64,000 bases of DNA from Fibrobacter sp. UWB16 (GTDB lineage: Bacteria > Fibrobacterota > Fibrobacteria > Fibrobacterales > Fibrobacteraceae): positions 1,178,001 through 1,242,000 of the forward strand of contig NZ_OCMS01000001.1 of the NCBI RefSeq assembly GCF_900215325.1, given 5' to 3'. This document shows positions 835 through 14,048 of the stretch, piece by piece (positions within the stretch are counted from its first letter, which is position 1; each line of letters begins with the position of its first letter). The position numbers and the translations under genes were made by a program. The notes below the pieces were generated by a model, which was given only the letters and a program-made list of their open reading frames with translations, did not search any database and was not told where the DNA came from.

Positions 835-855
835 AAGGTAGGTTTCTTTTTTTTA

Positions 856-884
856 TTTATCGTATCAATTGGGAATTATGTAAA
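856..884 (-). promoter_or_regulatory. Putative sigma70 promoter for the left-edge gene
   Basis: Read on the minus strand, TTTACA (879-884) and GATAAA (856-861) are separated by 17 bp and lie just upstream of the ATG at 834. This is a match by eye to the -35/-10 consensus in AT-rich DNA. Confidence 0.4.
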
Positions 885-1267
885 GGAAATTGTATTAAGC
901 GCTATACCGCTGAAGTACCTCTGCACATTCGCACACCAACAATATAGATTACCGAAAGTTTATCGTCAAAAAGCTCCAATCATCCAAAGCTCAATTTCAT
1001 CACAATACACCTTGCAACTTACTACCATTGCATCTCAAATCCAAAGAATCTAAATTCTTCTACAAGAAAAAATGAACATGTTCAATGCATCACTTTCATG
1101 GATCAAGAGCAAACATACAAGAAGGGAATATTATTGTTTTAATAGAAAAATCCAGTTAAATAAAAAAGACCCAAGCAATTATTAGATCAAAAATAGCGAT
1201 TCCTCAAAAATGTCAAAATACGTCATTTTTAATATGTATATTTGATTTTACAGGAAATTCAGCCCTA

Positions 1268-1296
1268 TTGCGCATTATATAGGAATAGGATATTTT
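1268..1296 (+). promoter_or_regulatory. Putative promoter for the PIN-GNAT/ASCH module
   Basis: TTGCGC (1268-1273), a 17-bp spacer and TATTTT (1291-1296) lie about 65 bp before the ATG at 1359. The start itself has a strong Shine-Dalgarno AAGGAGG about 1348-1354. Confidence 0.35.
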
Positions 1297-1358
1297 AAAA
1301 AAGAACAGTAAAAAGAATAAGAAAACAATGCGTAAAAAAAAAAGAACAAGGAGGAAGT

Positions 1359-2861
1359 ATGAAGGTCTTGCTAGATACAAACATCATCATTCACAGAGAA
1401 GCTAGTCATGTAGAGAACCAGGATATCGGCACTCTCTTCAAATGGCTAGATCGCACCCACTGCGAAAAAATCGTCCATTCTAAATCAATCGAAAAAATTC
1501 TCAAGAACAAAAACGCCACAACCGTTAAGTCATTCAAGGCAAAAATTCAGAACTACGAAATTCTGCAAAATCCTTCGCCTATTGCAGAAGAGGTCCTCGT
1601 CGTGTCCAAAAAGATGGACACAACCGAAAATGACTCCGTAGACACCATTTTGCTTAACGAAGTCTTCTGCGATCGTGTTGACTTGCTAATTACCGAAGAC
1701 AAAAAGATTCATGCAAAAGCTGCCGCTCTAAATATTTCAGATAAAGTCTTCAACATAGACCGCTTCCTAGAAAAGGTTTTCTCCGAGAATCCGGAATTGG
1801 TCAACTACAAGGTCTTGAATGTTCAAAAGGTTCCTTTTGGAAAGATTGATTTGAACGACCCCTTCTTTCAGTCCTTAAAAGATGATTATGAGGGTTTCGA
1901 TAAATGGTTTCTGCGGAAATATGACGAAGCCGCTTATATTACCATAAATTCGAACAACGGAAAATTGCTCTCATTCCTTTATGTCAAGAAAGAAGATGAA
2001 TCGGAAAACTACGCCGACATCACGCCTCCGTTGCCGCCCAAGAAGCGCTTAAAGGTCGGGACTTTCAAAGTTATTAGTAACGGTTTTAGACTTGGCGAAA
2101 GATTTTTGAAGATAATCTTTGACAACGCCTTAAAAAACAAGGTCGAAGAAATCTATGTAACGATTTTCGATAGGACCGACGAGCAGAAGCGGTTAATTGC
2201 CCTTATGGAAAAGTGGGGCTTTGTCTATTGGGAGAAGAAGGGCGGCGAGAGAGTATATGTTCGTGACTTCAACCCGAATTTTTTCATAGAAGATGTTTGC
2301 AAGACCTATCCCTACATTTCAAAAAATCGCGATACATTTATAGTCCCCATTTATCCCGACTACCATACGGAACTGCTACCCGACTCCATTCTCAATACGG
2401 AATCGCCGAGCGATTTTGTGGAAGATTCGCCCCATCGGAATAGTATTTCGAAGGTGTATGTATCGCGAGCCTATGAACCGCACCCCAAGATTGGGGACCT
2501 TCTTGTGTTCTATCGAACGGGTGGATTATACAAAAGCGTCATTACCACAATCGGTATTGTAACTGAAATTAAGGAAAATTTCAGCAATAAAGAAGAATTT
2601 GTTACTTACTGCAGCAAGGGTAGCGTATTCCCAGAGAAAGAACTCGAGAAAATGTGGGATTATCGCCATCAAAGACCTTTTGTGGTGAGCTTTCTTTATG
2701 TATATTCTTTCCCAAATAGAATAAACATGAGCAAGTTGATTGACATGGGCATCTTTAACGGAGTCAATGACGCACCCCGCGGTTTTAGGTTAATTTCTAA
2801 AAACCAGTTTGAAAGCATTTTAAAGGAGACCGCCAGTGAAGGCCGTTTTATTGTCGATTAA
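1359..2861 (+). CDS. PIN - GNAT - PUA/EVE-like fusion protein
   Basis: A 500-residue cytoplasmic protein with three recognisable parts. Residues 1-150 read as a PIN-type ribonuclease: LLDTNIIIH at the start, DSVDTILL and LLITEDKKIHA later, which supply the usual acidic residues. About residues 185-300 read as a GNAT acetyltransferase-like fold, with FRLGERFLKIIFDNA as the probable acetyl-CoA loop and an EKWGF strand near its end. About residues 320-500 contain GDLLVFYRTGG and resemble PUA/EVE-type modified-nucleic-acid binding domains. A strong AAGGAGG fixes the start. It overlaps the ASCH gene by 26 bp, so the two are co-translated. The best guess is a toxin or defence effector with its partner. 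Domain calls are by pattern; the GNAT and EVE-like parts are less certain than the PIN domain. Confidence 0.75.
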   Translation: MKVLLDTNIIIHREASHVENQDIGTLFKWLDRTHCEKIVHSKSIEKILKNKNATTVKSFKAKIQNYEILQNPSPIAEEVLVVSKKMDTTENDSVDTILLNEVFCDRVDLLITEDKKIHAKAAALNISDKVFNIDRFLEKVFSENPELVNYKVLNVQKVPFGKIDLNDPFFQSLKDDYEGFDKWFLRKYDEAAYITINSNNGKLLSFLYVKKEDESENYADITPPLPPKKRLKVGTFKVISNGFRLGERFLKIIFDNALKNKVEEIYVTIFDRTDEQKRLIALMEKWGFVYWEKKGGERVYVRDFNPNFFIEDVCKTYPYISKNRDTFIVPIYPDYHTELLPDSILNTESPSDFVEDSPHRNSISKVYVSRAYEPHPKIGDLLVFYRTGGLYKSVITTIGIVTEIKENFSNKEEFVTYCSKGSVFPEKELEKMWDYRHQRPFVVSFLYVYSFPNRINMSKLIDMGIFNGVNDAPRGFRLISKNQFESILKETASEGRFIVD

Positions 2862-3213
2862 GCCTGAATTCGCTCACAAGATTTTTGAGGGCTCAAAAAA
2901 GTATGAGTTCCGCAAGCAGGTCTTCAAGGATTTGTCCATAAAGAAGGTCATCGTGTATTCTTCATCACCAGAACAGAAGGTTATCGGAGAATTTGAAATC
3001 GAGACAATCTTGGATGGTACGCCCGACAAAATCTGGATTCAAACTAGACTATATTCAGGGATTTCTCAAGAGTTCTTCGAGAGTTACTTTGAAGGTCGAG
3101 ACAAGGCTTATGCAATCAAGGTGGCCTCAACCAAAAGATACTCCAAGCACAAATCCCTTGCCGATTTCAACATTCATACTGCACCGCAATCTTTTGCGTA
3201 TGTGAATGTGTGA
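2836..3213 (+). CDS. ASCH domain protein
   Basis: A 125-residue protein that is essentially one ASCH domain (PUA-like fold, predicted RNA or modified-base binding): LLSIKPEFAHKIFEGSKKYE near the N-terminus, the FRKQVF that follows, and VIGEFEIETIL in the middle are typical of the family. It starts at a GTG preceded by AAGGAG (2823-2828), inside the 3' end of the PIN-GNAT gene, so expression is tightly coupled. It is likely the sensor or antidote partner of that fusion. The ASCH call is firm; the role as partner is inferred from the overlap. Confidence 0.8.
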   Translation: MKAVLLSIKPEFAHKIFEGSKKYEFRKQVFKDLSIKKVIVYSSSPEQKVIGEFEIETILDGTPDKIWIQTRLYSGISQEFFESYFEGRDKAYAIKVASTKRYSKHKSLADFNIHTAPQSFAYVNV

Positions 3214-3247
3214 TTTTACAAATATTTTGCCGGACACTTAGAGAAAC

Positions 3248-4252
3248 ATGCCTAAAAAAAAATTGCATATTACAATTGGAACTAGTTTTAGTGGAATTGG
3301 AGCACCTGAACAAGCGCTAAAGAAATTGGGTGTAAACGAAAAAATTTTATTCGCAGGAGATATTGATCCTTTTTGTAAACAAGCCTTTTTTGCCAATTAT
3401 CAAATAAGTGAATCTGATTGGCATTCTGATGTTCGTAATTTTTCAGCAACACGTTTTGCAGGTCAATTGGATTTATTTGTTGGAGGGAGTCCATGTCAAT
3501 CCTTTTCTGTAATGGGAAAAAGAAAAGGGTTAGAAGAAGCTCGAGGTACACTTTTTTATGAGTACGCAAGAATTGTATCAGAAGCAAAGCCAAAAGTTTT
3601 TATATATGAAAATGTCACAGGGATGTTAAATCATGATCATGGACAAACATGGAATGTAATTTCAGGAATATTTGACAGTCTTGGATATGATTGGAAACTT
3701 TGGGTTTTGAATGCTAAAGATTTCGGTCTTCCGCAGAATCGTAGGCGCATTTTTGTAATCGGATTTGAAAAAAAATACAAAGAATGGTTTAATAAGTTAA
3801 AGGAACCTGAAAAAATAAACTTAAATGAGGATATGAAATTTTTTTTGGATAAATCGGTACCTAATAAGTACTATTTACCAGAAAAAGGCTTTAACCGTGT
3901 TATTGATCCAAATCAATCTAAACATGTTGCTTTAAATGGCAAAATTGCACGGTGTCAAGTAGCCTGTCAACAATACAATTGGTTTGGCGATATGCGTTTT
4001 GAATCCCAAATTCCCAAACGTATTGAAGACGATCCAAGAATTTACAAAGGGGTTTATCAGGGAACACGAGGCATAGCGAGGACGTTAACGCCACGAGAAT
4101 GTTTACGATTAATGGGTTTTCCTGAAGATTTCAAAATTGTAGTAAACGACATGCAGACATACCGACAAGCTGGAAATTCAATGGCTGTAAATGTTATGGA
4201 AAATGTTATAAAAAGTATCCTAAAGACCGGAATATTTGGAGATTTTAGATGA
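3248..4252 (+). CDS. DNA (cytosine-5) methyltransferase 1, LlaJI-type system
   Basis: C5-cytosine methyltransferase of 334 residues. Motif I is SFSGIGAPE (about 13-21), the catalytic loop is GGSPCQSFS with Cys83, ENV is at 121-123, QNRRR at 163-167 and GNSM at about 309-312. The target-recognition part between motifs VIII and IX is short. Its ATG-side neighbour is the ASCH gene 34 bp upstream. Its stop overlaps the start of a second, related methyltransferase by 4 bp. Two m5C enzymes in tandem fit an asymmetric recognition site in which each strand needs its own enzyme, as known for LlaJI. The gene is clearly more AT-rich than the window average, which suggests transfer. The recognition sequence cannot be read from the protein. 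Confidence 0.93.
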   Translation: MPKKKLHITIGTSFSGIGAPEQALKKLGVNEKILFAGDIDPFCKQAFFANYQISESDWHSDVRNFSATRFAGQLDLFVGGSPCQSFSVMGKRKGLEEARGTLFYEYARIVSEAKPKVFIYENVTGMLNHDHGQTWNVISGIFDSLGYDWKLWVLNAKDFGLPQNRRRIFVIGFEKKYKEWFNKLKEPEKINLNEDMKFFLDKSVPNKYYLPEKGFNRVIDPNQSKHVALNGKIARCQVACQQYNWFGDMRFESQIPKRIEDDPRIYKGVYQGTRGIARTLTPRECLRLMGFPEDFKIVVNDMQTYRQAGNSMAVNVMENVIKSILKTGIFGDFR

Positions 4253-5343
4253 AAAACATATTGAAGGTCGCATCAGTTTTTAGTGGAATTGGAGCTCCAG
4301 AGTTTGCTCTTAAAAGAAGCGGTATTCCGCATAAACTTGTATTTGCATGTGATAACGGAGAAATTGATTTATTAAAGTCTGATGAAGAAATTCTTGAAAA
4401 CCTAAAGGGATTATCGTTCTCAGAAAGGCGAACTTACATAGCTTCCCTTTTACCCAAAAGAACAAATCATGTAAAAAAATCTTTCTTAGCAAATTATGAT
4501 CTCGACGAAAAGCATTTTCATCATAATGTAAAGTTACTTGACGGAACTGAATACAAAAATAAAGTTGATTTATTTATTGGAGGGAGTCCTTGTCAAAGTT
4601 TCACACTATTAGGATACCAAAAAGGATTAGAAGAAGCTCGCGGAACTTTATTTTATGAATTTGCAAGATTGATTAAAGAAATAGAACCTAAAGCCTTTAT
4701 ATATGAAAATGTTCAGGGACTTGTAAAACATGATGGTGGCAAAACTTGGGATGTTGTCCAACGAGTATTCGCATCTTTGGGCTATACAATCCATTATCAA
4801 ATTATGGACGCTGTAAACTATGGAATTCCTCAAAAAAGACGTCGTATTTTTGTAGTAGGTTTTAAAAGAGGTGGGGAAAATTTCGAATTTCCCCCAATTA
4901 AGGAATTAAATTACACTCTTCAAGACTTTTTGCTGGAAAACACACCTGAAGGAAATTTCACATCAAATAATGGCGAAATTTGTATTAAGCATGCAAAAGG
5001 TGAAATTCCAGAAAAATATTATTTATCAGAAAAAATTTTACCCGGAATTTTAAGTGAAGGTTCTGGAGGATTTTCTATGAAGCCAGAAATCGACCTAAAA
5101 ATAGCCCGCCCATTGATGCGCACGATGCATAAAATGCATCGTGCGGGAGAAGATAATTACGTAACAACAAACGGTAGAATTCGGCGGCTTATACCAAGAG
5201 AATGTCTGCGACTGATGGGATTCACAGACGATTTCAAGCAAGTCGTATCAGATTGTCAAATGTATCAACAAGCAGGTAATTCTATGGTAGTCGACGTTAT
5301 GATGGCTCTAATAAAGGAAGTTAAAAGGAATATCAAAATATGA
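4249..5343 (+). CDS. DNA (cytosine-5) methyltransferase 2, LlaJI-type system
   Basis: A second C5-cytosine methyltransferase, 364 residues, paralogous to its upstream neighbour: FSGIGAPE (11-18), GGSPCQSF with Cys115, ENV at 153-155, QKRRRIFVVG in the middle and AGNSM near the C-terminus. It differs by an insertion of about 30 residues after motif I (residues 36-75). The 4-bp ATGA overlaps at both ends tie it to the first methyltransferase and to the NTPase. The coding sequence contains a perfect 12-bp inverted repeat with a 3-nt loop (5119-5145). It presumably protects the strand not modified by the first enzyme. Confidence 0.93.
   Translation: MKNILKVASVFSGIGAPEFALKRSGIPHKLVFACDNGEIDLLKSDEEILENLKGLSFSERRTYIASLLPKRTNHVKKSFLANYDLDEKHFHHNVKLLDGTEYKNKVDLFIGGSPCQSFTLLGYQKGLEEARGTLFYEFARLIKEIEPKAFIYENVQGLVKHDGGKTWDVVQRVFASLGYTIHYQIMDAVNYGIPQKRRRIFVVGFKRGGENFEFPPIKELNYTLQDFLLENTPEGNFTSNNGEICIKHAKGEIPEKYYLSEKILPGILSEGSGGFSMKPEIDLKIARPLMRTMHKMHRAGEDNYVTTNGRIRRLIPRECLRLMGFTDDFKQVVSDCQMYQQAGNSMVVDVMMALIKEVKRNIKI
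5119..5145. repeat. Perfect 12-bp inverted repeat inside methyltransferase 2
   Basis: CGCACGATGCAT (5119-5130), loop AAA, ATGCATCGTGCG (5134-5145). It is in frame and encodes part of the region before motif IX. It is one of two such 12-bp, 3-nt-loop palindromes inside genes of this island. Confidence 0.9.
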
Positions 5344-6857
5344 GTGAACAATTTGATCTAAATATTGCAGGACATAGCGCAACATTAAAAATAGAACCAA
5401 CTGGTTCTAAGGATACAGGCATTTTCTTTCCACCAGAATTAATAGATTTTTTGGGAGGAATGGAAAACTTGTCTTTTATCATTTACAAGGATGATTGTAT
5501 AGCAGCAATGGCAAGCATTATTGCATCCTTGCCATTATATTCGAATAAAGGCGGAGAAAAGATAAGTCATGATTCTCCATCTGAAGTTTGTTCATCTTAT
5601 ATGAAAATGATAAATGAATTCTTTGGTCAGAATAAAACAACCATATACAAAGATTTCAAGCCATCAGAAACTACACAGTCCCGTAGATATCTTTACGGAC
5701 TTGACAAGGGTAATTTTTCCATACGAAAATTTTTAATTGCAAACTATTCAACACTTTCTTTTTTAAAGGATGATAAGAATCAATTTCATTTAAGAATAAA
5801 AACAAATGTAGTTCAATTCAAGCAAAATCCGTTGCCAGAAGGGAACGCCGCTATCGATATTGATGACGTTAGAGTAAATTTCCAAGCACCGCAAAATCAG
5901 TTGATTAAGCAAAAAATTATTTTTGGCGCACCCGGAACGGGAAAATCTCATCAGCTAGAGGAATATTGTAAAACCTATTTCTGCGACAGTGAGATATCTA
6001 ATAGTGCTGAGGAAATTGGGAAACGTTATGAACGTGCTACTTTTTACCCCAATTATAGCTTCGCTCAGTTCGTCGGAACATATAAGCCTGTTCAAAATAC
6101 TGAAAAAGGAAAGGAATCTGAGATTCTGTATAAGTATATCCCGGGGCCGTTCTTGCGAATCCTAGTAAAGGCACTGCAAAATCCTGAACAAAATTTTCTT
6201 CTCATTATTGAAGAAATCAATCGAGCTAACGTTGCTGCTGTTTTTGGAGATGTATTCCAACTTCTTGACCGTAAAAATGGCGTCAGTGAATACCCTATTG
6301 CCGCAAGTGAAGATATCAAGAAATACTTAAAAGACAACGGAATTGACCATTGTGATGAGTTGAGAATCCCCAACAACATGTATATCTGGGCAACAATGAA
6401 CAGTGCCGACCAGGGAGTATTCCCTATGGATACTGCATTCAAACGCCGTTGGGAATTCGAGTACATTGGTATCAACGAGAAAGAAGACGATATGAAGAAT
6501 TACGAAATACCAATGCAAAAAAAAGAAGAAAGTTCTCGTGAATGGATGAACTGGAATGAACTCCGTCATAAAATAAATGATAGGTTGACAGATCTAAAAA
6601 TCAACGAAGACAAATTGCTTGGTCCCTATTTTATTTCTGAAGAAAAACTGAAGTTAGTTGAAGGTAGAAAAGTAGAAAATGCTGAAGAATTTGTAAAATT
6701 CTTCAAGAGCAAGGTGCTGATGTACCTCTTTGAAGATGCTGTAAAGATGCGTCCTAGAGACCTTTTTGATGAAAATACAATTAGCAGGTTACGATTCTCG
6801 GATATCTGCGAAAAGTTCGATGAAATCGGTCAAAGAATTTTCAATTTTACCAAATGA
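5340..6857 (+). CDS. McrB-like NTPase subunit of LlaJI-type restriction enzyme (R1)
   Basis: A 505-residue protein with an N-terminal part of about 190 residues that I do not recognise, possibly DNA-binding, followed by an AAA+ module of the McrB class. Walker A is GAPGTGKS (196-203), Walker B LLIIEEINR (287-295), the McrB-type signature TMNSAD is at 352-357 and an arginine-rich FKRRWEF at 367-373. In McrBC and LlaJI this subunit uses NTP hydrolysis to translocate DNA and activate the partner nuclease. It overlaps methyltransferase 2 by 4 bp and the nuclease subunit by 4 bp, so all four genes form one translationally coupled operon. Confidence 0.88.
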   Translation: MSEQFDLNIAGHSATLKIEPTGSKDTGIFFPPELIDFLGGMENLSFIIYKDDCIAAMASIIASLPLYSNKGGEKISHDSPSEVCSSYMKMINEFFGQNKTTIYKDFKPSETTQSRRYLYGLDKGNFSIRKFLIANYSTLSFLKDDKNQFHLRIKTNVVQFKQNPLPEGNAAIDIDDVRVNFQAPQNQLIKQKIIFGAPGTGKSHQLEEYCKTYFCDSEISNSAEEIGKRYERATFYPNYSFAQFVGTYKPVQNTEKGKESEILYKYIPGPFLRILVKALQNPEQNFLLIIEEINRANVAAVFGDVFQLLDRKNGVSEYPIAASEDIKKYLKDNGIDHCDELRIPNNMYIWATMNSADQGVFPMDTAFKRRWEFEYIGINEKEDDMKNYEIPMQKKEESSREWMNWNELRHKINDRLTDLKINEDKLLGPYFISEEKLKLVEGRKVENAEEFVKFFKSKVLMYLFEDAVKMRPRDLFDENTISRLRFSDICEKFDEIGQRIFNFTK

Positions 6858-8332
6858 CAGAAGAAAAACCATCCCTATTTCAAGAATTGAAACGGTACAC
6901 CCCAAGAGAGATTAGGGAACTTTTGGGATGTACCTCTGAAAATGTAAAAGCTTACATAAACACACTACGAAAATACGGAATCGTAAAGATTGTCAAGAAC
7001 GAAAGTCTAGATTTTGCAGACTTGAATAATGACGACCTTGTTATAGCGGATTCTGCAGAAGAGGTGTTGGGAGCATGCTACAAATTTGATTTTGTAGGCG
7101 TAGTTGCTGTAAAAAATAAGGTGATTCTCTGCTATCCTAAATACACCTCAAGTACTGATGAAAAAAAAATTCGAGATGAATTGAAATTGGCAATAAAAGC
7201 CATTCGCAAATATGATTCTAAAGGCGAATTGGTTCATTTGCATAATAGAGACGATAAAGGCGAGTATAACAAATTGGCCTTGTCATTGCATATTTTGCAG
7301 GATTATTTCGAGAATGGCGTTTATACGAATATTCAAGAAATTATAGAAACTAATGGCGAAGGAGAAATCGATTGGGATCGAACGATTAACGAAACATTCG
7401 CCTACATCAAGAACAATCGTCCTTATTATCTTGAACTAAAAACACGCTTATCACAAAACGATGATTTAGATTATTTCAAGCGATTGCATGAATGTATCGT
7501 TACGCAATGCTCCAAATATCTCAAAGAATTAGATGTATTAGATTTCTTTGACATACCGGAAGTTCTTTTAAGCGAATCGGATTTGAAAGACTTTGGCGAT
7601 ACGGACTATATTCTTTACCGTTTGGAACGAGAAATAGCAAATCAGTTTGTCACAAAGAAACAGAACCTACTAAAAACGCTATATACATTTGTCGCCACAT
7701 CTGGAACGAGTTCGCAGGAAAATTCTTATAGTCTTTATGGCACTAACTGCATGAACTTGATTTGGGAAAAAGCCTGCGGACAGATATTTGGGAACATTCA
7801 TGATCAAGTCGAATCAGAAATAAAGAAACCTCAATGGTACTTGAACGGCGGTCATTATGAAACAAAATCTCTAATTCCGGATATCATAACCAAATGTGAA
7901 ATTAATGACAGGAATGTATTTTGCATACTAGATGGGAAATATTATCTGGTTAAAACGTCCGAGAATATTTCAGGAAATCCCGGCGTCCAAGATGTTGTAA
8001 AGCAATTCGCCTACCATGAATCTTTCCACGATTACCTTTGCGAACAGAATTGCAAATGTGTTTTTAATGCTTTCTTATTTCCACTTTTTGATGCAGATGG
8101 TTCTCCAGAAAAGGAAATTCTTATCCGCGGTTTTGTGACTATGCTAAAATGGGGCGTTGAACAACTTGTCCCAATATATCTTGTTTTCTTAAAGCCTGAG
8201 TTCGTGTGGATGAATTATATTAACGGATCCATTCAGAAGCCGGCGCTGATCGAAGCGATGAAACGCATTCGATTAGAAGATGTTTTTAGAAATGTGTTGA
8301 AATATCCAGATACCTTGCAGTATATGGAATAA
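6854..8332 (+). CDS. LlaJI-like restriction endonuclease subunit (R2)
   Basis: A 492-residue protein that matches the overall plan of the LlaJI restriction subunit (RE_LlaJI family, McrC-like role). The N-terminus (about 12-60) is a winged-helix-like segment with YTPREIRELLGCTSENVKAY. The C-terminal third has a PD-(D/E)xK nuclease signature: IPD at 341-343 and LDGKYY with Asp360 and Lys362. Gln-rich helix VVKQFAYH follows, as usual in these folds. It is the last gene of the four-gene operon and ends 15 bp before a convergent gene. With the McrB-like subunit it should cut unmodified DNA. The family assignment rests on gene order plus motifs. Confidence 0.82.
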   Translation: MTEEKPSLFQELKRYTPREIRELLGCTSENVKAYINTLRKYGIVKIVKNESLDFADLNNDDLVIADSAEEVLGACYKFDFVGVVAVKNKVILCYPKYTSSTDEKKIRDELKLAIKAIRKYDSKGELVHLHNRDDKGEYNKLALSLHILQDYFENGVYTNIQEIIETNGEGEIDWDRTINETFAYIKNNRPYYLELKTRLSQNDDLDYFKRLHECIVTQCSKYLKELDVLDFFDIPEVLLSESDLKDFGDTDYILYRLEREIANQFVTKKQNLLKTLYTFVATSGTSSQENSYSLYGTNCMNLIWEKACGQIFGNIHDQVESEIKKPQWYLNGGHYETKSLIPDIITKCEINDRNVFCILDGKYYLVKTSENISGNPGVQDVVKQFAYHESFHDYLCEQNCKCVFNAFLFPLFDADGSPEKEILIRGFVTMLKWGVEQLVPIYLVFLKPEFVWMNYINGSIQKPALIEAMKRIRLEDVFRNVLKYPDTLQYME

Positions 8333-8346
8333 AATTAAATCAAAAA

Positions 8347-10023
8347 CTAGGGCTTGCTAGATATCTTTAATAGATTTTTGATCCTTGCTTTTATATTCTC
8401 AAAACATACGTTCAACCGTAGTTTTGCCACATCAGTTAATCTAGATGTGTGGGCAACGGCGTCGCGAATAGGGGTGTACTCAATGCAGTCTCGTAGTAAA
8501 GTTGACTTTTTTTGTTTGTCTTTTTCGGTGTCAGCTATATAAGCTAGCTGTTCCATTCCGCAATACGATAAATCGTTGTCGTCATGTCGAATTTGTATGC
8601 TTAAATTCGCTTTATCTTTCTTTGCTTGATAGCCTTCCTTCCAATTTTTTATGTCATTTTTTAAACTATCTGGATATGCAATCTTTTGGGTAGTAATATA
8701 CTTTCGCAGTAGATTTTCCGCTAGAAAACAATCTCCATATGATTCGTAATTATAGACGGCATCGGGTTTTAACTCATTAATCCAAGAATTGACCCTATCT
8801 TTATCTTCGGTAGACGTTGTTTTGTCGAAATGAACGTAATCATCAGTAATGGCGTCATATAGCTCCTCAGACTTTCGCTGTCTTGGAGGTATTTTTTTAT
8901 TGTCGGAATCACCTGTTTTTCGATTGGCTCGACGTAAATCATCCCATTCTTCAATTATCTTCGCCATGATATCTTTTTTCAATACATCTAAAAGTGAATT
9001 GAATTTAGGATCGTCTGGAACAACTCCTTCTCGACTACTAGTAAAACGATCTGTATCATCGTCAAGTTCGTTGAAATGGATTTGACCATAAAGGTAACTT
9101 TCTACAATTCGAGTTGATGGAATATGACTCAAAATATTCTTTTCACGAAGTCTTCCATTAACAAAAAGGTCAACTGTTGCCTTTTCGTCTGAAGTTCTAA
9201 TTTTTAGTTTCGAAGGCGTATCAACAGAAGCGATAAACCCGGACACAGTCACGGATTCTGTGTATATTAAACGATGAGTGATTAAGCTTTTTGACTTTCG
9301 AATCGCTTTTTCAAAAGCATCATTATCATTATCATGGTTTATCAACCATAAGAACTGAGTATCATTTATTAATGGCTCCAAATCAACCATTGAAATTTCT
9401 TTTCCATTAACGCTTATATTAAAAGAAGGATCAAACAATGAAAATCTGAAGTCAAGAGCAATAAGTTGACGTAAATAATCAATGCGATTTTTTATGCCGT
9501 CATTCATCCCATTGAAAATAATTATAGTCCCATGAGAGAGTTTTTTGTTTTCTTTTAGCAAATCGGAATTTAACGGCGTAAGATTGTAATCATTGGGAGT
9601 TATGTCATCTTTAATTGCCTGATCTAGACGAGCATTGTCTATTGTTCCTCCCGTCAAGCTTGACTTTTGTGTTTTGGTAACGATGGAGATGCTTTTTGCG
9701 CAAGAAAGCAATGCCAACTTGCCAATACCCTTTCGTCCGATAAATGGACGTCTTGTTGGAGAGCAACTTTTTCCATCTTTTCTTTTAGAATATCCGATTT
9801 TTAGGAACTTATTTTGAAAATCGTCTGGCGTCATTCCAACACCATCATCTTGAACGACTAATTGGTTCTTTTCTCTGTCTATGTATATGTGGACATTTTT
9901 TGCGTCCGCATCCCATGAGTTAGATATAGCCTCGCCTATAACGGTTATAAGGCTTCGGTACAAATTTCTTCCTAAATGATTTAGAACACTTAAGGAAATG
10001 TTGAATTTATAGTTTTCCATCAT
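8347..10023 (-). CDS. MutL/MORC-like GHKL ATPase with C-terminal HEPN-like motif
   Basis: A 558-residue protein starting with a GHKL ATPase domain: the N box has Glu31, Asn35 and Asp38-Asp40 (EAISNSWDAD), DDGVGM is at 59-64 and GRKGIGKLA at 96-104. ATPases of this kind next to a cytosine methylase are known from the MutL/MORC-type restriction-modification systems described by Iyer, Abhiman and Aravind. Past about residue 380 no nuclease of a known restriction class is evident. The last 50 residues contain YTPIRDAVAH (R520-x4-H525) in a helical context, which fits the HEPN active-site pattern. It overlaps the upstream methyltransferase by 17 bp. The ATPase call is firm, the HEPN reading is tentative. 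Confidence 0.85.
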   Translation of the reverse strand: MMENYKFNISLSVLNHLGRNLYRSLITVIGEAISNSWDADAKNVHIYIDREKNQLVVQDDGVGMTPDDFQNKFLKIGYSKRKDGKSCSPTRRPFIGRKGIGKLALLSCAKSISIVTKTQKSSLTGGTIDNARLDQAIKDDITPNDYNLTPLNSDLLKENKKLSHGTIIIFNGMNDGIKNRIDYLRQLIALDFRFSLFDPSFNISVNGKEISMVDLEPLINDTQFLWLINHDNDNDAFEKAIRKSKSLITHRLIYTESVTVSGFIASVDTPSKLKIRTSDEKATVDLFVNGRLREKNILSHIPSTRIVESYLYGQIHFNELDDDTDRFTSSREGVVPDDPKFNSLLDVLKKDIMAKIIEEWDDLRRANRKTGDSDNKKIPPRQRKSEELYDAITDDYVHFDKTTSTEDKDRVNSWINELKPDAVYNYESYGDCFLAENLLRKYITTQKIAYPDSLKNDIKNWKEGYQAKKDKANLSIQIRHDDNDLSYCGMEQLAYIADTEKDKQKKSTLLRDCIEYTPIRDAVAHTSRLTDVAKLRLNVCFENIKARIKNLLKISSKP

Positions 10024-11110
10024 GAGCCTCGCATTGTTTTAAATGCTGCTTTATACTTTTCCCAATAATTTCCCCTAATTTTGGGGGGACAGCGTTCCCT
10101 ATATATCTGGACGCTAAAGTCGTTGATACAGATTTTTCATCTACAAAAAATTGATAATTTCTTGGGAACGTCTGTATCAAAGCGGCTTCCCGAAGAGATA
10201 TTGCTCTATCTTGTTCGGGATGTCCAAATCGTCCATTTCCTAAACCAGTACACTGTGTAGTCATTGTTGGAGCAGGTTTATTCCAATCCATACGACCATA
10301 TACACTACCGAAGGTTTTTCCACTATTCTTTTTATGACATTTTAGCTGAAGTTCTTTAGGCCAATCAGACCAACTTCCATTTGTAGGAGTTGCTTTTATT
10401 CGTTGAATATTCAAAGGTGTTAATGCTCGTGCTTTGTGTAAAGCATCATTTGGGTCCCTTTCTCCAGCTTCGATTGGCGGCAAATTTCCAATCACATCCT
10501 TTACGGTTACATAATTTTCTGCAGTGTGTGTTGGGGGGATTAATTCAATTTTTCCTTTTTTTGATGCTAATAAAACCAAACGTTTTCTTGTTTGAGGAAT
10601 ACCATAATCGGGACAAAAGACAACCTTATAGCTTACATTATACTCGTTACGTTCCAAGGTTTCGATAAAACGTTGAAAAACATGTTCCAATTTGAATTTC
10701 AAAATTTGCGGAACATTTTCCATAGTGACAATGTCGGGTTGAACTTCTTCCACTAGTCGTCCGAATTCATCTAGTAAACTGTACTTATTTGGGTCTTTAT
10801 TTTTGTTTTTAAATGCATATGAAGAAAATGGCTGGCAAGGAGCACACCCCGCAAGAACTCGAATTGCACCTTTACTATAAGTATTGTTTATTTCTTCGGC
10901 TGTTACTTTGCGAATATCTTCATATCGAAATTCAGCATTGTTGTTGTGATGATATGCATATTGGCAAGTATAGTCTAGATCATACCCGGCTTTAATTTTA
11001 AAGCCTTGGCTTTTTAATCCAAAACTTAGGCCTCCTATCCCGCAAAACAGATCAACAACTTCTATAGGAGGGGATTTCTTTTTTGCAGAACTCTTGCGTG
11101 ATTTAGCCAT
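10007..11110 (-). CDS. DNA (cytosine-5) methyltransferase, Dcm type
   Basis: A 367-residue m5C methyltransferase with a lysine/serine-rich start, then DLFCGIGGLSFG (20-31), catalytic APCQPFSSYAF with Cys92, MENVP at about 130-134, IPQTRKRLVL for motif VIII and GNAVPP at about 338-343. It is more canonical (Dcm/HaeIII-like) than the two enzymes of the LlaJI-type operon and is not their close paralogue. It is the first gene of a two-gene minus-strand unit with the GHKL ATPase, overlapping it by 17 bp, so the pair probably forms a separate restriction or restriction-like system. The start ATG is at 11110; upstream DNA is very AT-rich. Confidence 0.93.
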   Translation of the reverse strand: MAKSRKSSAKKKSPPIEVVDLFCGIGGLSFGLKSQGFKIKAGYDLDYTCQYAYHHNNNAEFRYEDIRKVTAEEINNTYSKGAIRVLAGCAPCQPFSSYAFKNKNKDPNKYSLLDEFGRLVEEVQPDIVTMENVPQILKFKLEHVFQRFIETLERNEYNVSYKVVFCPDYGIPQTRKRLVLLASKKGKIELIPPTHTAENYVTVKDVIGNLPPIEAGERDPNDALHKARALTPLNIQRIKATPTNGSWSDWPKELQLKCHKKNSGKTFGSVYGRMDWNKPAPTMTTQCTGLGNGRFGHPEQDRAISLREAALIQTFPRNYQFFVDEKSVSTTLASRYIGNAVPPKLGEIIGKSIKQHLKQCEAHDGKL

Positions 11111-12252: not shown

Positions 12253-12325
12253 ATTCCGAAAATTCTGAATAAGGGGACGCCTCTAACATCAACCGGCCGC
12301 AAATTGTGACCACATGGAGGCTAAT

Positions 12326-13408
12326 ATGGCTAAAAATAAAGAGAATGTCCCTGCAAAAGCGGTGGAATCGTTGTTCAATAAAATATCCCCTCTTATTACG
12401 CAATCTCGTAAAATGATTGCAACGACCATCAATACTGCTGAAGTCTGCACCAAATTCAAGATAGGCCAATATATAGTCGAAGATGAACAAAAAGGCAAAA
12501 GCCGAGCGGCATATGGGAAACAAGTACTCATTCATCTATCTGCCAGACTGATAGAAAAACATGGGGAAGGTTGGTCCGTTGAAACATTAACGCTCTGTAG
12601 AAAATTTTTCAATGTATATTCGAATTTCGTAAACGGTGTTTACGAAATTGAGGGCGAATATAAATTCACACTTTCTTGGTCGCATTACCTAGTGCTCATG
12701 CGCATCAAGAATGATGATGAACGCCGTTTTTACGAGATAGAGGCTACTTCCGGGAACTGGTCTGTTCGCGAGTTGCAGCGGCAGTATGGTTCAAGTCTGT
12801 ATGAACGCCTTGCGTTGAGCCGGGACAAGGAACAGGTTGCCCGCTTATCGCGAGTCGGCAACATGGTGGAGAAGCCGGAGGATATCATCAAGAACCCGGT
12901 GACGCTTGAGTTTGTCGGTTTGAAACCGGATGCATCGTATTCGGAATCGAACTTGGAATCCGCTATCATTAACAAGCTGCAAGAATTCCTGCTCGAACTG
13001 GGGAAAGGATTCCTGTTCGAAGCACGACAAAAACGATTCTCATTTGATGAGGATGACTACTATGTAGACTTGGTTTTGTACAATCGCCTGCTGCAATGCT
13101 ATGTACTCGTTGACTTAAAAGTCGACAAATTGACCCATCAAGATCTTGGCCAAATGCAGATGTACGTAAACTACTATGATCGTTATGTAAAGCAGAATTT
13201 CGAAAAGCCGACTATCGGCATTTTACTTTGCAAAGAGAAGAAGGATACCCTTGTGAGGTTGACGTTACCCGAAAATGCAAATATTTATGCATCCGCTTAT
13301 GAGTTGTATCTGCCGGACAAGAAACTTTTGCAAGCGAAGGTCAAAGAATGGGTAAATGAATTCGAAACGCAAGATGGTAGGACACCCCAATTGTCAGCCA
13401 ACGGATGA
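12326..13408 (+). CDS. yhcG: YhcG/DUF1016 family PD-(D/E)xK nuclease
   Basis: A 360-residue protein of the YhcG family. The N-terminal half (about 30-170) is the DUF1016 N-terminal domain: SWSHYLVLMRIKNDDERRFY and the WSVRELQRQYGSSLYERL segment are family hallmarks. The C-terminal half holds the PD-(D/E)xK nuclease with FLFEARQKRF, DDYYVDLVLYNRLL and VLVDLKVDKLTHQDLGQMQMY, giving the Asp and Asp-x-Lys residues. GGAGG at 12315-12319 places the start at the ATG 12326 rather than the in-frame ATG at 12314. Members are common in defence islands, though their substrate is unsettled. The gene carries a perfect 12-bp inverted repeat at 12623-12649. Confidence 0.9.
   Translation: MAKNKENVPAKAVESLFNKISPLITQSRKMIATTINTAEVCTKFKIGQYIVEDEQKGKSRAAYGKQVLIHLSARLIEKHGEGWSVETLTLCRKFFNVYSNFVNGVYEIEGEYKFTLSWSHYLVLMRIKNDDERRFYEIEATSGNWSVRELQRQYGSSLYERLALSRDKEQVARLSRVGNMVEKPEDIIKNPVTLEFVGLKPDASYSESNLESAIINKLQEFLLELGKGFLFEARQKRFSFDEDDYYVDLVLYNRLLQCYVLVDLKVDKLTHQDLGQMQMYVNYYDRYVKQNFEKPTIGILLCKEKKDTLVRLTLPENANIYASAYELYLPDKKLLQAKVKEWVNEFETQDGRTPQLSANG
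12623..12649. repeat. Perfect 12-bp inverted repeat inside yhcG
   Basis: AATTTCGTAAAC (12623-12634), loop GGT, GTTTACGAAATT (12638-12649), in frame, encoding the variable segment just before the SWSHY motif. It has the same arm and loop length as the palindrome at 5119-5145. Confidence 0.9.
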
Positions 13409-13504: not shown

Positions 13505-13747
13505 ATGAATATTACGAAACACGCTTTTGAGAGAATGCGTGAAAGAGGCTTTAATGTAGAAATGCTTGCGAAAGTTCTACGGAAAAAGAACTTGGTACGG
13601 ATTTCATCAGATAGAGAAGGTGTATCTAAAATCGTTTCTGAAGTAGACAATCGTTTTTGGACATTGTTTGTATCCGACGACCTAAAAACTTTAATAACCG
13701 TAAGGAGAGCACATGAAGACGAAGAAAGAAAAGCACGAGAAGATTAA
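13505..13747 (+). CDS. DUF4258/RelE-like toxin candidate
   Basis: An 80-residue basic protein opening NITKHAFERMRERGF, with SKIVSEVDNRFWTLFVSDD in the middle and LITVRRAH near the end. This is the small alpha/beta plan of DUF4258-type proteins, relatives of the RelE/BrnT ribonuclease toxins. It is first in a two-gene unit behind a near-perfect promoter and overlaps the next gene by 35 bp. The size, the pairing and the charge support a toxin role; the fold call is moderate. Confidence 0.7.
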   Translation: MNITKHAFERMRERGFNVEMLAKVLRKKNLVRISSDREGVSKIVSEVDNRFWTLFVSDDLKTLITVRRAHEDEERKARED

Positions 13748-14048
13748 ATTACCTAAGGGTTTCAAACTAGTTGACGATTTTCTTTCCAAAGAAGAAATAG
13801 ATAGACTAGAGAACGACACAACCATAAAAGATCCAATAATTATTACCGGCGGACACGAGTCGGAAACTCTCGAAGAATCCATCGCCCGCATTAGCCGTGC
13901 CATTGCAGAGGCAAAAGAAGAAAAAAAGATGTATTCCATAAGACTCAAGGTCAAGACTGTTGACGCGATCAAGCGCAAAGCTGCAGCCGCAGGGATTCCG
14001 TATCAGACCTACGTGAATGTTCTGCTTGACAAGGCGGCTTTCGCTTAA
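13713..14048 (+). CDS. Antitoxin candidate with C-terminal CopG/BrnA-like DNA-binding region
   Basis: A 111-residue protein with an acidic middle (DDFLSKEEIDRLEND) and a C-terminal segment SIRLKVKTVDAIKRKAAAAG followed by YQTYVNVLLDKA. That is the beta-helix-helix plan of ribbon-helix-helix antitoxins such as BrnA. AAGGAGAG (about 13704-13711) lies inside the toxin gene and sets the ATG at 13713. The acidic part would bind the basic partner and the C-terminus an operator at the shared promoter. Confidence 0.72.
   Translation: MKTKKEKHEKIKLPKGFKLVDDFLSKEEIDRLENDTTIKDPIIITGGHESETLEESIARISRAIAEAKEEKKMYSIRLKVKTVDAIKRKAAAAGIPYQTYVNVLLDKAAFA

Follow-up and report, generated by a model that had tools for sequence, protein, structure and literature searches.

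A candidate toxin-antitoxin-like cassette of the PDC-M11 class preceding a LlaJI-type restriction-modification system in Fibrobacter sp. UWB16

The gene pair and its setting

The window, by which we mean the whole 64,000-nt stretch of Fibrobacter sp. UWB16 DNA analysed here (contig NZ_OCMS01000001.1, positions 1,178,001 to 1,242,000), carries two overlapping forward-strand genes encoding a predicted three-domain protein of 500 residues and an ASCH protein of 125 residues. The genes are referred to as gevT-like and gevA-like after the GevT toxin and GevA antitoxin named in GenBank record PV340567 (Escherichia phage PhiR47_2); no paper behind these names was found in the open-licence literature, and they stand in the record only. 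The features of the locus are as follows.

1204..1358, + strand: upstream region carried with both genes; left cassette edge at -155 from the start codon (blastn, G000 against G105)
1211..1225, + strand: putative operator TGTCAAAATACGTCA, an imperfect copy of the palindromic motif TGTCA-5-TGACA, which recurs close to this edge in other Fibrobacter copies
1359..2861, + strand: gevT-like / PDC-M11A gene, ATG start, 500 aa, PIN-GNAT-ASCH/EVE; PADLOC PDLC04422, E 1.6e-215
1359..1760, + strand: PIN domain, residues 1-134, acidic residues D6, D92, D95 and D114; VapC folds, Z 13.5
1809..2276, + strand: GNAT-like domain, residues 151-306; NGFRLGE in the motif-A region, where another residue stands in for the customary central Gly; Naa60 folds, Z 13.5
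2322..2843, + strand: predicted C-terminal ASCH/EVE/PUA-type nucleic-acid-reader domain, residues ~322-495; ZmASCH, Z 15.3; Pfam EVE, E 0.08
2836..3213, + strand: gevA-like / PDC-M11B gene, GTG start, 125-aa ASCH protein; PADLOC PDLC04425, E 5.5e-49
3248..8332, + strand: LlaJI-type restriction-modification (RM) system, a neighbour outside the cassette, 35 nt 3' of the gevA-like gene and on the same strand; two C5 methylases, McrB-like, LlaJI nuclease

The PADLOC matches to M11A (residues 1-499 of the GevT-like protein) and M11B are nearly full length, adjacent and in order, and the 3.56-Mb genome holds one copy of the cassette. In the library PDC-M11 stands as a candidate label with no description attached, and a literature search for the term found no paper. 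The architecture, which the first-pass annotation had implied to be novel, was published in 2020: PIN-GNAT-EVE proteins with an ASCH partner were described as putative toxin-antitoxin (TA) systems with defence genes nearby (Bell, Wolf and Koonin 2020, PMC7641849), a paper that also credits the architecture to Iyer et al., states an association of the class with type I RM and gives none of these modules as experimentally characterised. The window pair has the domain order, the ASCH partner and the kind of defence neighbourhood of this class, but its adjacent RM system is a LlaJI-type type II rather than a type I system, and its C-terminal domain is structurally closest to the Zymomonas ASCH protein (ZmASCH). 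Compared to the window proteins, PhiR47_2 GevT is 39% identical over the GNAT-EVE part and its ASCH partner 44% identical, with an overlap of the same kind (23 nt versus 26 nt in the window); unlike the window protein, however, it has no PIN domain. The novelty of the present work is therefore one of context and detail, not of architecture: the near-inseparability of the pair, the near-constant 23-nt overlap, a sharp Fibrobacter cassette in front of different cytosine-methylase genes, an hsdS-hsdR position in three relatives, the replaced GNAT motif-A glycine, and separate GNAT and EVE cistrons in some phages.

The gevA-like start lies inside the gevT-like gene, giving an overlap of 26 nt, and is preceded by a Shine-Dalgarno-like aaaggaga; the gevA-like codons for the conserved Ile8-Lys9 contain the gevT-like stop. 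As the genes overlap, their translation is probably coupled. The 26-nt length results from one extra codon (MKAVLLSIK versus MKVLLSIK). A stand-alone ASCH protein translated from inside the 3' end of the larger gene, as read in the first-pass annotation, is thus what the locus encodes, and the module does stand first in a run of defence genes. The LlaJI-type system (two C5 methylases, McrB-like and RE_LlaJI; 3248-8332) is followed on the other strand by a HATPase gene (BbrUII/HgiDII N-part) and a C5 methylase gene (8347-11110), and then by genes for a YhcG-type nuclease (12314-13408) and a CopG-type antitoxin (13713-14048).

Predicted folds and conserved residues

Pfam gave a weak EVE match only for the 500-residue protein (E 0.08), with no match for PIN or GNAT, and an ASCH match for the 125-residue protein (E 0.0026); because of these weak EVE/ASCH signals and the lack of PIN and GNAT hits, the domain calls were checked by structure. 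Single chains were modelled with AlphaFold2 from alignments of 45 and 33 sequences, respectively, yielding a mean pLDDT of 86.8 (pTM 0.67) for the GevT-like protein and 96.4 for the GevA-like protein. In structural comparisons of the former model, residues 1-134 matched VapC PIN toxins (3zvk_B, Z 13.5, 2.5 Å, 123 aligned), residues 151-306 matched GNAT N-acetyltransferases (5icv_A, Z 13.5, 2.8 Å, 148 aligned) and residues 324-492 matched ZmASCH (5y6b_D, Z 15.3, 2.3 Å, 139 aligned), with the four ZmASCH rows together spanning 321-495. The single chain of PIN, acetyltransferase-like and reader-like domains proposed from the letters alone was thereby borne out, both the PIN and the GNAT-like fold being found in the model. 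Sequence profiles agreed for the GNAT part (Naa50, E 1.6e-4; PaiA, E 2.7e-4), and in a fused relative (L117) they detected GNAT (E 0.002), EVE (E 0.00058) and ASCH (E 0.00069), all below Pfam cut-offs.

Conservation was assessed, and a tree built, on 92 relatives (35 with and 57 without a PIN domain) after sequences more than 80% identical had been dropped. Among the 35 PIN-bearing relatives the acidic residues were retained at D6 in 35, D92 in 30, D95 in 33 and D114 in 33, and since these residues are kept the domain looks, by its residues, like a catalytically competent RNase. The PIN fold and its acidic active site (D6/D92/D95/D114) are common to VapC and GevT, but in contrast to VapBC systems the window has no adjacent VapB-type antitoxin, the downstream neighbour being the ASCH gene; upstream, no ORF of at least 60 aa starts in 835-1358, and the next gene, for which Pfam gave no match, is encoded on the opposite strand.

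The canonical GNAT acyl-CoA loop reads (Q/R)xxGx(G/A). Although the GNAT core is kept (K232, G246 and G287, each 92/92), the central glycine of motif A is Arg244 in the window protein, the register being set by the Naa50 alignment, and this position is occupied by Gly in 1/92 relatives and by Lys or Arg in 71/92. Because the loop departs from the canonical motif, acetyl transfer by this domain is uncertain; with the glycine replaced in 91/92 relatives, either CoA would be bound unusually or the domain would serve another role. No remark on the replacement was found in the parts of the literature consulted. In fold the domain comes closest to N-terminal protein acetyltransferases rather than to tRNA acetylators, and the Foldseek matches include GNAT toxins (9ilr GmvT, 7byy, E 4.3e-4); toxins of the TacT/AtaT type, however, have the canonical acyl-CoA loop that GevT does not keep (Arg244). 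No Mom-like or other base-modifying GNAT was among the structural matches listed, an absence from which nothing is argued here.

The closest solved relative of the GevA-like protein was found to be ZmASCH (5guq, 5gus, 5y6b, 5y6c; profile E 5.9e-24), to which the model aligned with Z 17.4 and 1.9 Å over 125 residues, at 26% identity. As the C-terminal domain of GevT and GevA both match ZmASCH structurally, the two share a common fold by their models, and their profiles are weakly but specifically similar (hhalign probability 88.8, E 2.5e-6, for the C-terminal GevT profile against the GevA family, the PIN and GNAT profiles, used as controls, reaching probabilities of 0.2-0.3). On these predicted structures, a PDC-M11-type pair thus holds two readers of one kind. 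ZmASCH is reported to bind nucleic acid and to cut ssRNA in vitro (PMC5615036). When its cleft residues Tyr47, Lys53 and Ser128 were compared to GevA as a possible RNase of the same sort, one of the three differed: Y41 and S119 are kept, and Lys53 aligns with Gln47.

Co-conservation, cassette edges and distribution

Across 57 bacterial, archaeal and phage loci (duplicates L003, L097, L099, L106, L121 and L124 were dropped, and near-identical loci may remain), the ASCH gene was adjacent to gevT in 50, fused to it in one (638 aa), apart in two (L104 and L119, with an HTH-ASCH gene just upstream) and absent from four. All four ASCH-less loci carry a partial or decayed gevT: the contig of L101 ends 19 nt past a partial gevT, L102 and L103 have decayed copies and L132 a partial one. 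On viral contigs found by gevT the ASCH gene adjoins in 58/62, the misses being L168 and L169 (where ASCH lies 5' of an AAA_17 gene), L194 and L196; on contigs found by ASCH alone, gevT adjoins in 75/80, with L200, L212, L222, L234 and L247 as misses, L212 and L222 lying at the contig start. The two genes, whose lack of co-conservation would have counted against the first-pass reading, are hence nearly inseparable. Their overlap is almost constant: counted back from the last base of the gevT stop codon, the ASCH start lies at exactly 23 nt in 50/55 and 69/75 viral pairs with a readable start, and in the 57-locus set the overlap was 23 nt in 21 loci and 26 nt in 11, with gaps of 2 to 3 nt instead in one Fibrobacter group and one Bacteroidota-type group.

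Decay of toxin versus antitoxin was also considered as possible support for a TA pair. Over all viral rows, gevT was broken or partial beside an intact ASCH gene in 10 cases and the reverse was seen in one (L155), or 5 versus 1 in the gevT-found set alone. The asymmetry was not counted, since gevT is about three times longer, the sets share contigs and the ASCH-found set is biased to intact ASCH; the frequency of a broken gevT beside an intact ASCH gene does not exceed what gene length would predict.

In Fibrobacter the pair forms a sharply bounded cassette. By blastn, G000 and G105 share a block of 90% identity running from -155 to exactly the gevA stop (+1854), and in 12/12 Fibrobacter pairs homologous DNA ends at most 7 nt from that stop. 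The left edge falls 79-155 nt upstream of gevT in 8/12 pairs; of the remainder, G064/G073 share more (to -856), G064/G128 are cut by a contig end, and in G000/G062 and G000/G060 the 5' end is too diverged for an edge to be placed. Similarity is absent directly beyond the edges, with separate similar stretches farther off in several pairs. Because a stretch of about 80-155 nt upstream travels with the two genes, the arrangement argues for a control region belonging to the cassette. This much of the proposal that the module has its own promoter was retained; a recognisable promoter was not, as a scan for the sigma-70 consensus found nothing on the + strand ahead of 1359 (835-3400 contains 6 sites versus 6.5 expected). 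No inverted repeat with arms of at least 8 was found in 835-1400, the palindrome at 1211-1225 having 5-base arms and so falling below this limit, and TGTCAWWWWWYGWCA is enriched genus-wide in Fibrobacter.

What follows the cassette varies. In the two Fibrobacter groups nearest the window, a C5 methylase gene lies directly or one gene 3' of the cassette in 5/6 copies; these methylase genes differ, while the cassette is ~90-95% identical within each group. In G105 a C5 methylase gene overlaps gevA by 4 nt, and there are a second C5-like gene, another gene, and distant McrB-like and LlaJI-like genes. The G060 cassette is followed by an Mrr gene and two C5 genes that do not resemble those of the window, then by McrB-like and LlaJI genes that are relatives of the window's, with 82% DNA identity across 2.1 kb. 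G062 has a C5 methylase, and G065 an 849-aa C5/Eco57I fusion. With the window's own RM proteins as the only phmmer queries, a search that other RM types escape, no nearby homologue was found in G141, in four genomes of a more distant Fibrobacter group or in G099.

The 128 neighbours of PIN-bearing copies (26 loci) included seven C5 methylases (two of them the window's), five HsdS-domain and four N6 methylase-domain proteins, and most of the 128 were not RM proteins by the listed families. Methylases were called by Pfam and phmmer; a regular-expression motif search was dropped after missing 5/7 of the C5 methylases found by Pfam. The neighbours matched 311 PADLOC families, many of them redundant methylase models, compared to 35 for a control of 119 proteins from 24 hand-picked stretches (of 27, three being non-existent); 23 of these 24 genomes belong to the 26 of the test set, an imperfect matching. 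No methylase or restriction enzyme was among the 25 of these 35 control families that were listed; of 175 control Pfam families 25 were listed, so single RM matches in the control are possible.

Type I RM genes beside the cassette are frequent in the class without defining it; they are absent at the window, where the neighbour is LlaJI-type, and present in three relatives. The order in L112 is HsdM, HsdM, HsdS, GevT, ASCH-AAA_17, HsdR, and in L113 and L118 the GevT/ASCH pair has HsdS before it and HsdR after it, with two other genes before HsdR in L118; the ASCH part of these proteins was assigned by phmmer rather than Pfam.

Representatives of the class were found in bacteria, archaea and phages, and the PhiR47_2 allele is present in 274/5426 complete E. 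coli genomes. Within the phylum the distribution is patchy, with matches in 21/167 genomes, a figure that includes the window's own genome, partial matches and weak PIN-only matches. The PIN domain is absent from 57/92 non-redundant relatives, including L111, where the lack is merely due to a contig start, and the partial L132; it can therefore not be the universal effector. Phage forms mostly lack it, the match beginning only at residue 124 or later in 14/16 phage records and 55/62 viral contigs. In a tree of the GNAT-EVE core (92 rows) the PIN label needs four changes, two of which come from the contig-cut L111 and the partial L132, and with a midpoint root drawn for display the domain looks ancestral and lost once or twice toward a mostly viral clade. 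A further variant, with GNAT and EVE as separate in-frame cistrons, was found in 17 viral rows (15 contigs, two found twice), where a Shine-Dalgarno-like stretch and a stop close the GNAT cistron, and an ATG follows after 0 or 3 nt. As DNA divergence among these rows reaches 33% with both cistrons still open, the split is old and kept, and the reader domain is probably able to act in trans.

A latent effector and its ASCH partner, weighed against alternatives

Starting from the predicted folds, the conserved PIN active site, the co-conservation and overlap of the genes, the behaviour of the cassette and its defence neighbourhood, we consider it probable, with considerable room for doubt, that the pair is a self-contained two-gene TA-like defence cassette of the PDC-M11/(PIN)-GNAT-EVE-ASCH class that imposes a latent RNA-directed growth arrest held in check by the ASCH partner; the toxicity, its neutralisation, the RNA target and the trigger are what we infer. 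GevT would be the latent effector, its C-terminal ASCH/EVE-type domain binding a particular nucleic acid, possibly a modified base or a tRNA-like RNA. The intact-looking PIN domain would act as a metal-dependent RNase, and the GNAT-like domain might modify the same RNA or an aminoacyl-tRNA, or serve as a binding scaffold. GevA would bind GevT or its nucleic-acid ligand and keep GevT silent; given that ZmASCH, its nearest solved relative, binds nucleic acids and cuts ssRNA, it may do so by competing for RNA or by docking on GevT. This silencing would be upset when a phage attacks or a neighbouring defence function is lost, and the released PIN/GNAT activity would stop translation and phage growth. 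The first-pass annotation had suggested that the ASCH/EVE parts sense nucleic acid and release a PIN or GNAT toxin, a plausible mechanism close to the proposal in PMC7641849.

Many type II TA pairs have the reverse of a toxin-first arrangement, and the order gevT, gevA counts against a TA reading.

The recurrence of RM genes beside the cassette raises the alternative that GevT guards an RM system in the manner of PrrC, being silenced by the neighbouring system or reading its methylation, and released as an RNase when a phage disables it. The place of GevT and ASCH between hsdS and hsdR in L112, L113 and L118 is that of prrC in EcoprrI (hsdM-hsdS-prrC-hsdR; PMC3014915), the nearby C5 methylase genes in the two closest Fibrobacter groups agree with such a role, and THYN1 EVE domains are reported to read 5mC (PMC7641849). 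We nevertheless regard this as unlikely: the methylase genes change behind a conserved cassette, most neighbours of PIN-bearing copies are not RM proteins, no homologues of the window's RM proteins were found near the cassette in G141, G099 and the distant Fibrobacter group, no RM gene is annotated within 5 kb in PhiR47_2, and a dedicated partner, GevA, already exists. PrrC itself has an NTPase part and another nuclease in place of the PIN, GNAT-like and ASCH/EVE domains of GevT, and the window cassette precedes a type II system rather than standing between hsdS and hsdR. A more specific proposal, which we hold to be a somewhat longer shot, is that GevTA is a portable guard in which two readers of the same fold compare modified nucleic acid, so that disabling or evading the RM system would release PIN-GNAT and stop translation; such a unit would plug in before type II 5mC systems in Fibrobacter or between hsdS and hsdR elsewhere, following PrrC-like logic with unrelated parts.

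The prevalence of PIN-less forms in phages and the position of the pair beside cI in PhiR47_2 would suit a prophage-type regulatory or anti-restriction function. Under this view, which PMC7641849 raises as speculation, the GNAT-EVE-ASCH core would protect mobile DNA, for instance through marks on nucleic acid, the PIN form being a host adaptation. On the midpoint-rooted tree, however, the mostly viral clade appears to have lost the PIN domain at its base, which speaks against a later addition, and we judge this function improbable. Slimmer still is the chance of a writer-eraser pair, in which the GNAT domain would acetylate a base or aminoacyl-tRNA and GevA would remove the acetyl group as YqfB does from N4-acetylcytidine. 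GevT does have a GNAT fold, and YqfB, an ASCH-family ac4C amidohydrolase (PMC6972931), matches the GevA model (9kyf_B, Z 9.3, 2.3 Å, 94 aligned), but the motif-A glycine is missing, and of the YqfB triad Thr24-Lys21-Glu74 the nucleophile is replaced: in a register set by the shared GxKxxxxR pattern GevA has K21 and R26, and E24, invariant as Glu in both alignments, stands for Thr24. The YqfB-like reading of GevA was demoted to a weak rival because of this absent nucleophile.

Although the class extends over bacteria, archaea and phages, no experimental study of it was found in the open-licence literature. The cassette edges, the PrrC-like hsd position and the phage variants with separate cistrons open the system to direct tests of which domain acts as effector, of neutralisation by the ASCH partner, and of the neighbouring restriction system's state as a possible trigger. 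Base-reading by an ASCH fold in defence has a precedent, since a role in phage defence, with action on 5hmC DNA, is reported for BapA, another ASCH-like protein (PMC13160076).

A palindromic motif close to the cassette's left edge

The gevT-like gene (PIN-GNAT-ASCH/EVE) and the gevA-like ASCH gene form a cassette. Not far from its left boundary lies a short motif, which is for the most part a 15-bp palindrome (TGTCA-5-TGACA):

Window 1211-1225, also L304-L316: motif TGTCAWWWWWYGWCA

The motif was found to be enriched in Fibrobacter, with 251 matches to the forward pattern across 61 genomes versus 12 to the reversed pattern. Within the genome of Fibrobacter sp. UWB16 itself, a RhuM-family gene has another such site at a distance of 80 nt, and a gene encoding a HicB-like antitoxin has a further one approximately 280 nt away. 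Judging from site positions, the TGTCAWWWWWYGWCA sites perhaps constitute a regulon with defence genes among its members.

Alternative architectures among relatives

In some phage variants, GNAT and EVE are encoded by two separate cistrons that meet at a Shine-Dalgarno-stop-ATG junction, an arrangement kept among these variants down to 67% DNA identity:

L152, L155, L157-L159, L161, L166, L167, L171, L179, L180, L186, L192, L267, L269, L270, L274: split GNAT/EVE

GevT and its ASCH partner also occur naturally fused into a single protein of 638 aa (L117:1234-3150). Two phage contigs (L168 and L169, 4541-7029) carry the rearranged order ASCH - AAA_17 - GevT, the AAA_17 assignment having been verified for L168. 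A GevA-type ASCH domain was additionally found as a C-terminal fusion to a MORN-repeat protein (viral contig L200, 4564-6360), with no gevT adjoining this gene.

A neighbouring HATPase gene

Elsewhere in the window (8347-11110), a HATPase gene is paired with a C5 methylase. The HATPase protein covers only positions 1-367 of the 659-position model for BbrUII/HgiDII-type restriction enzymes, its C-terminal third lying outside the match.
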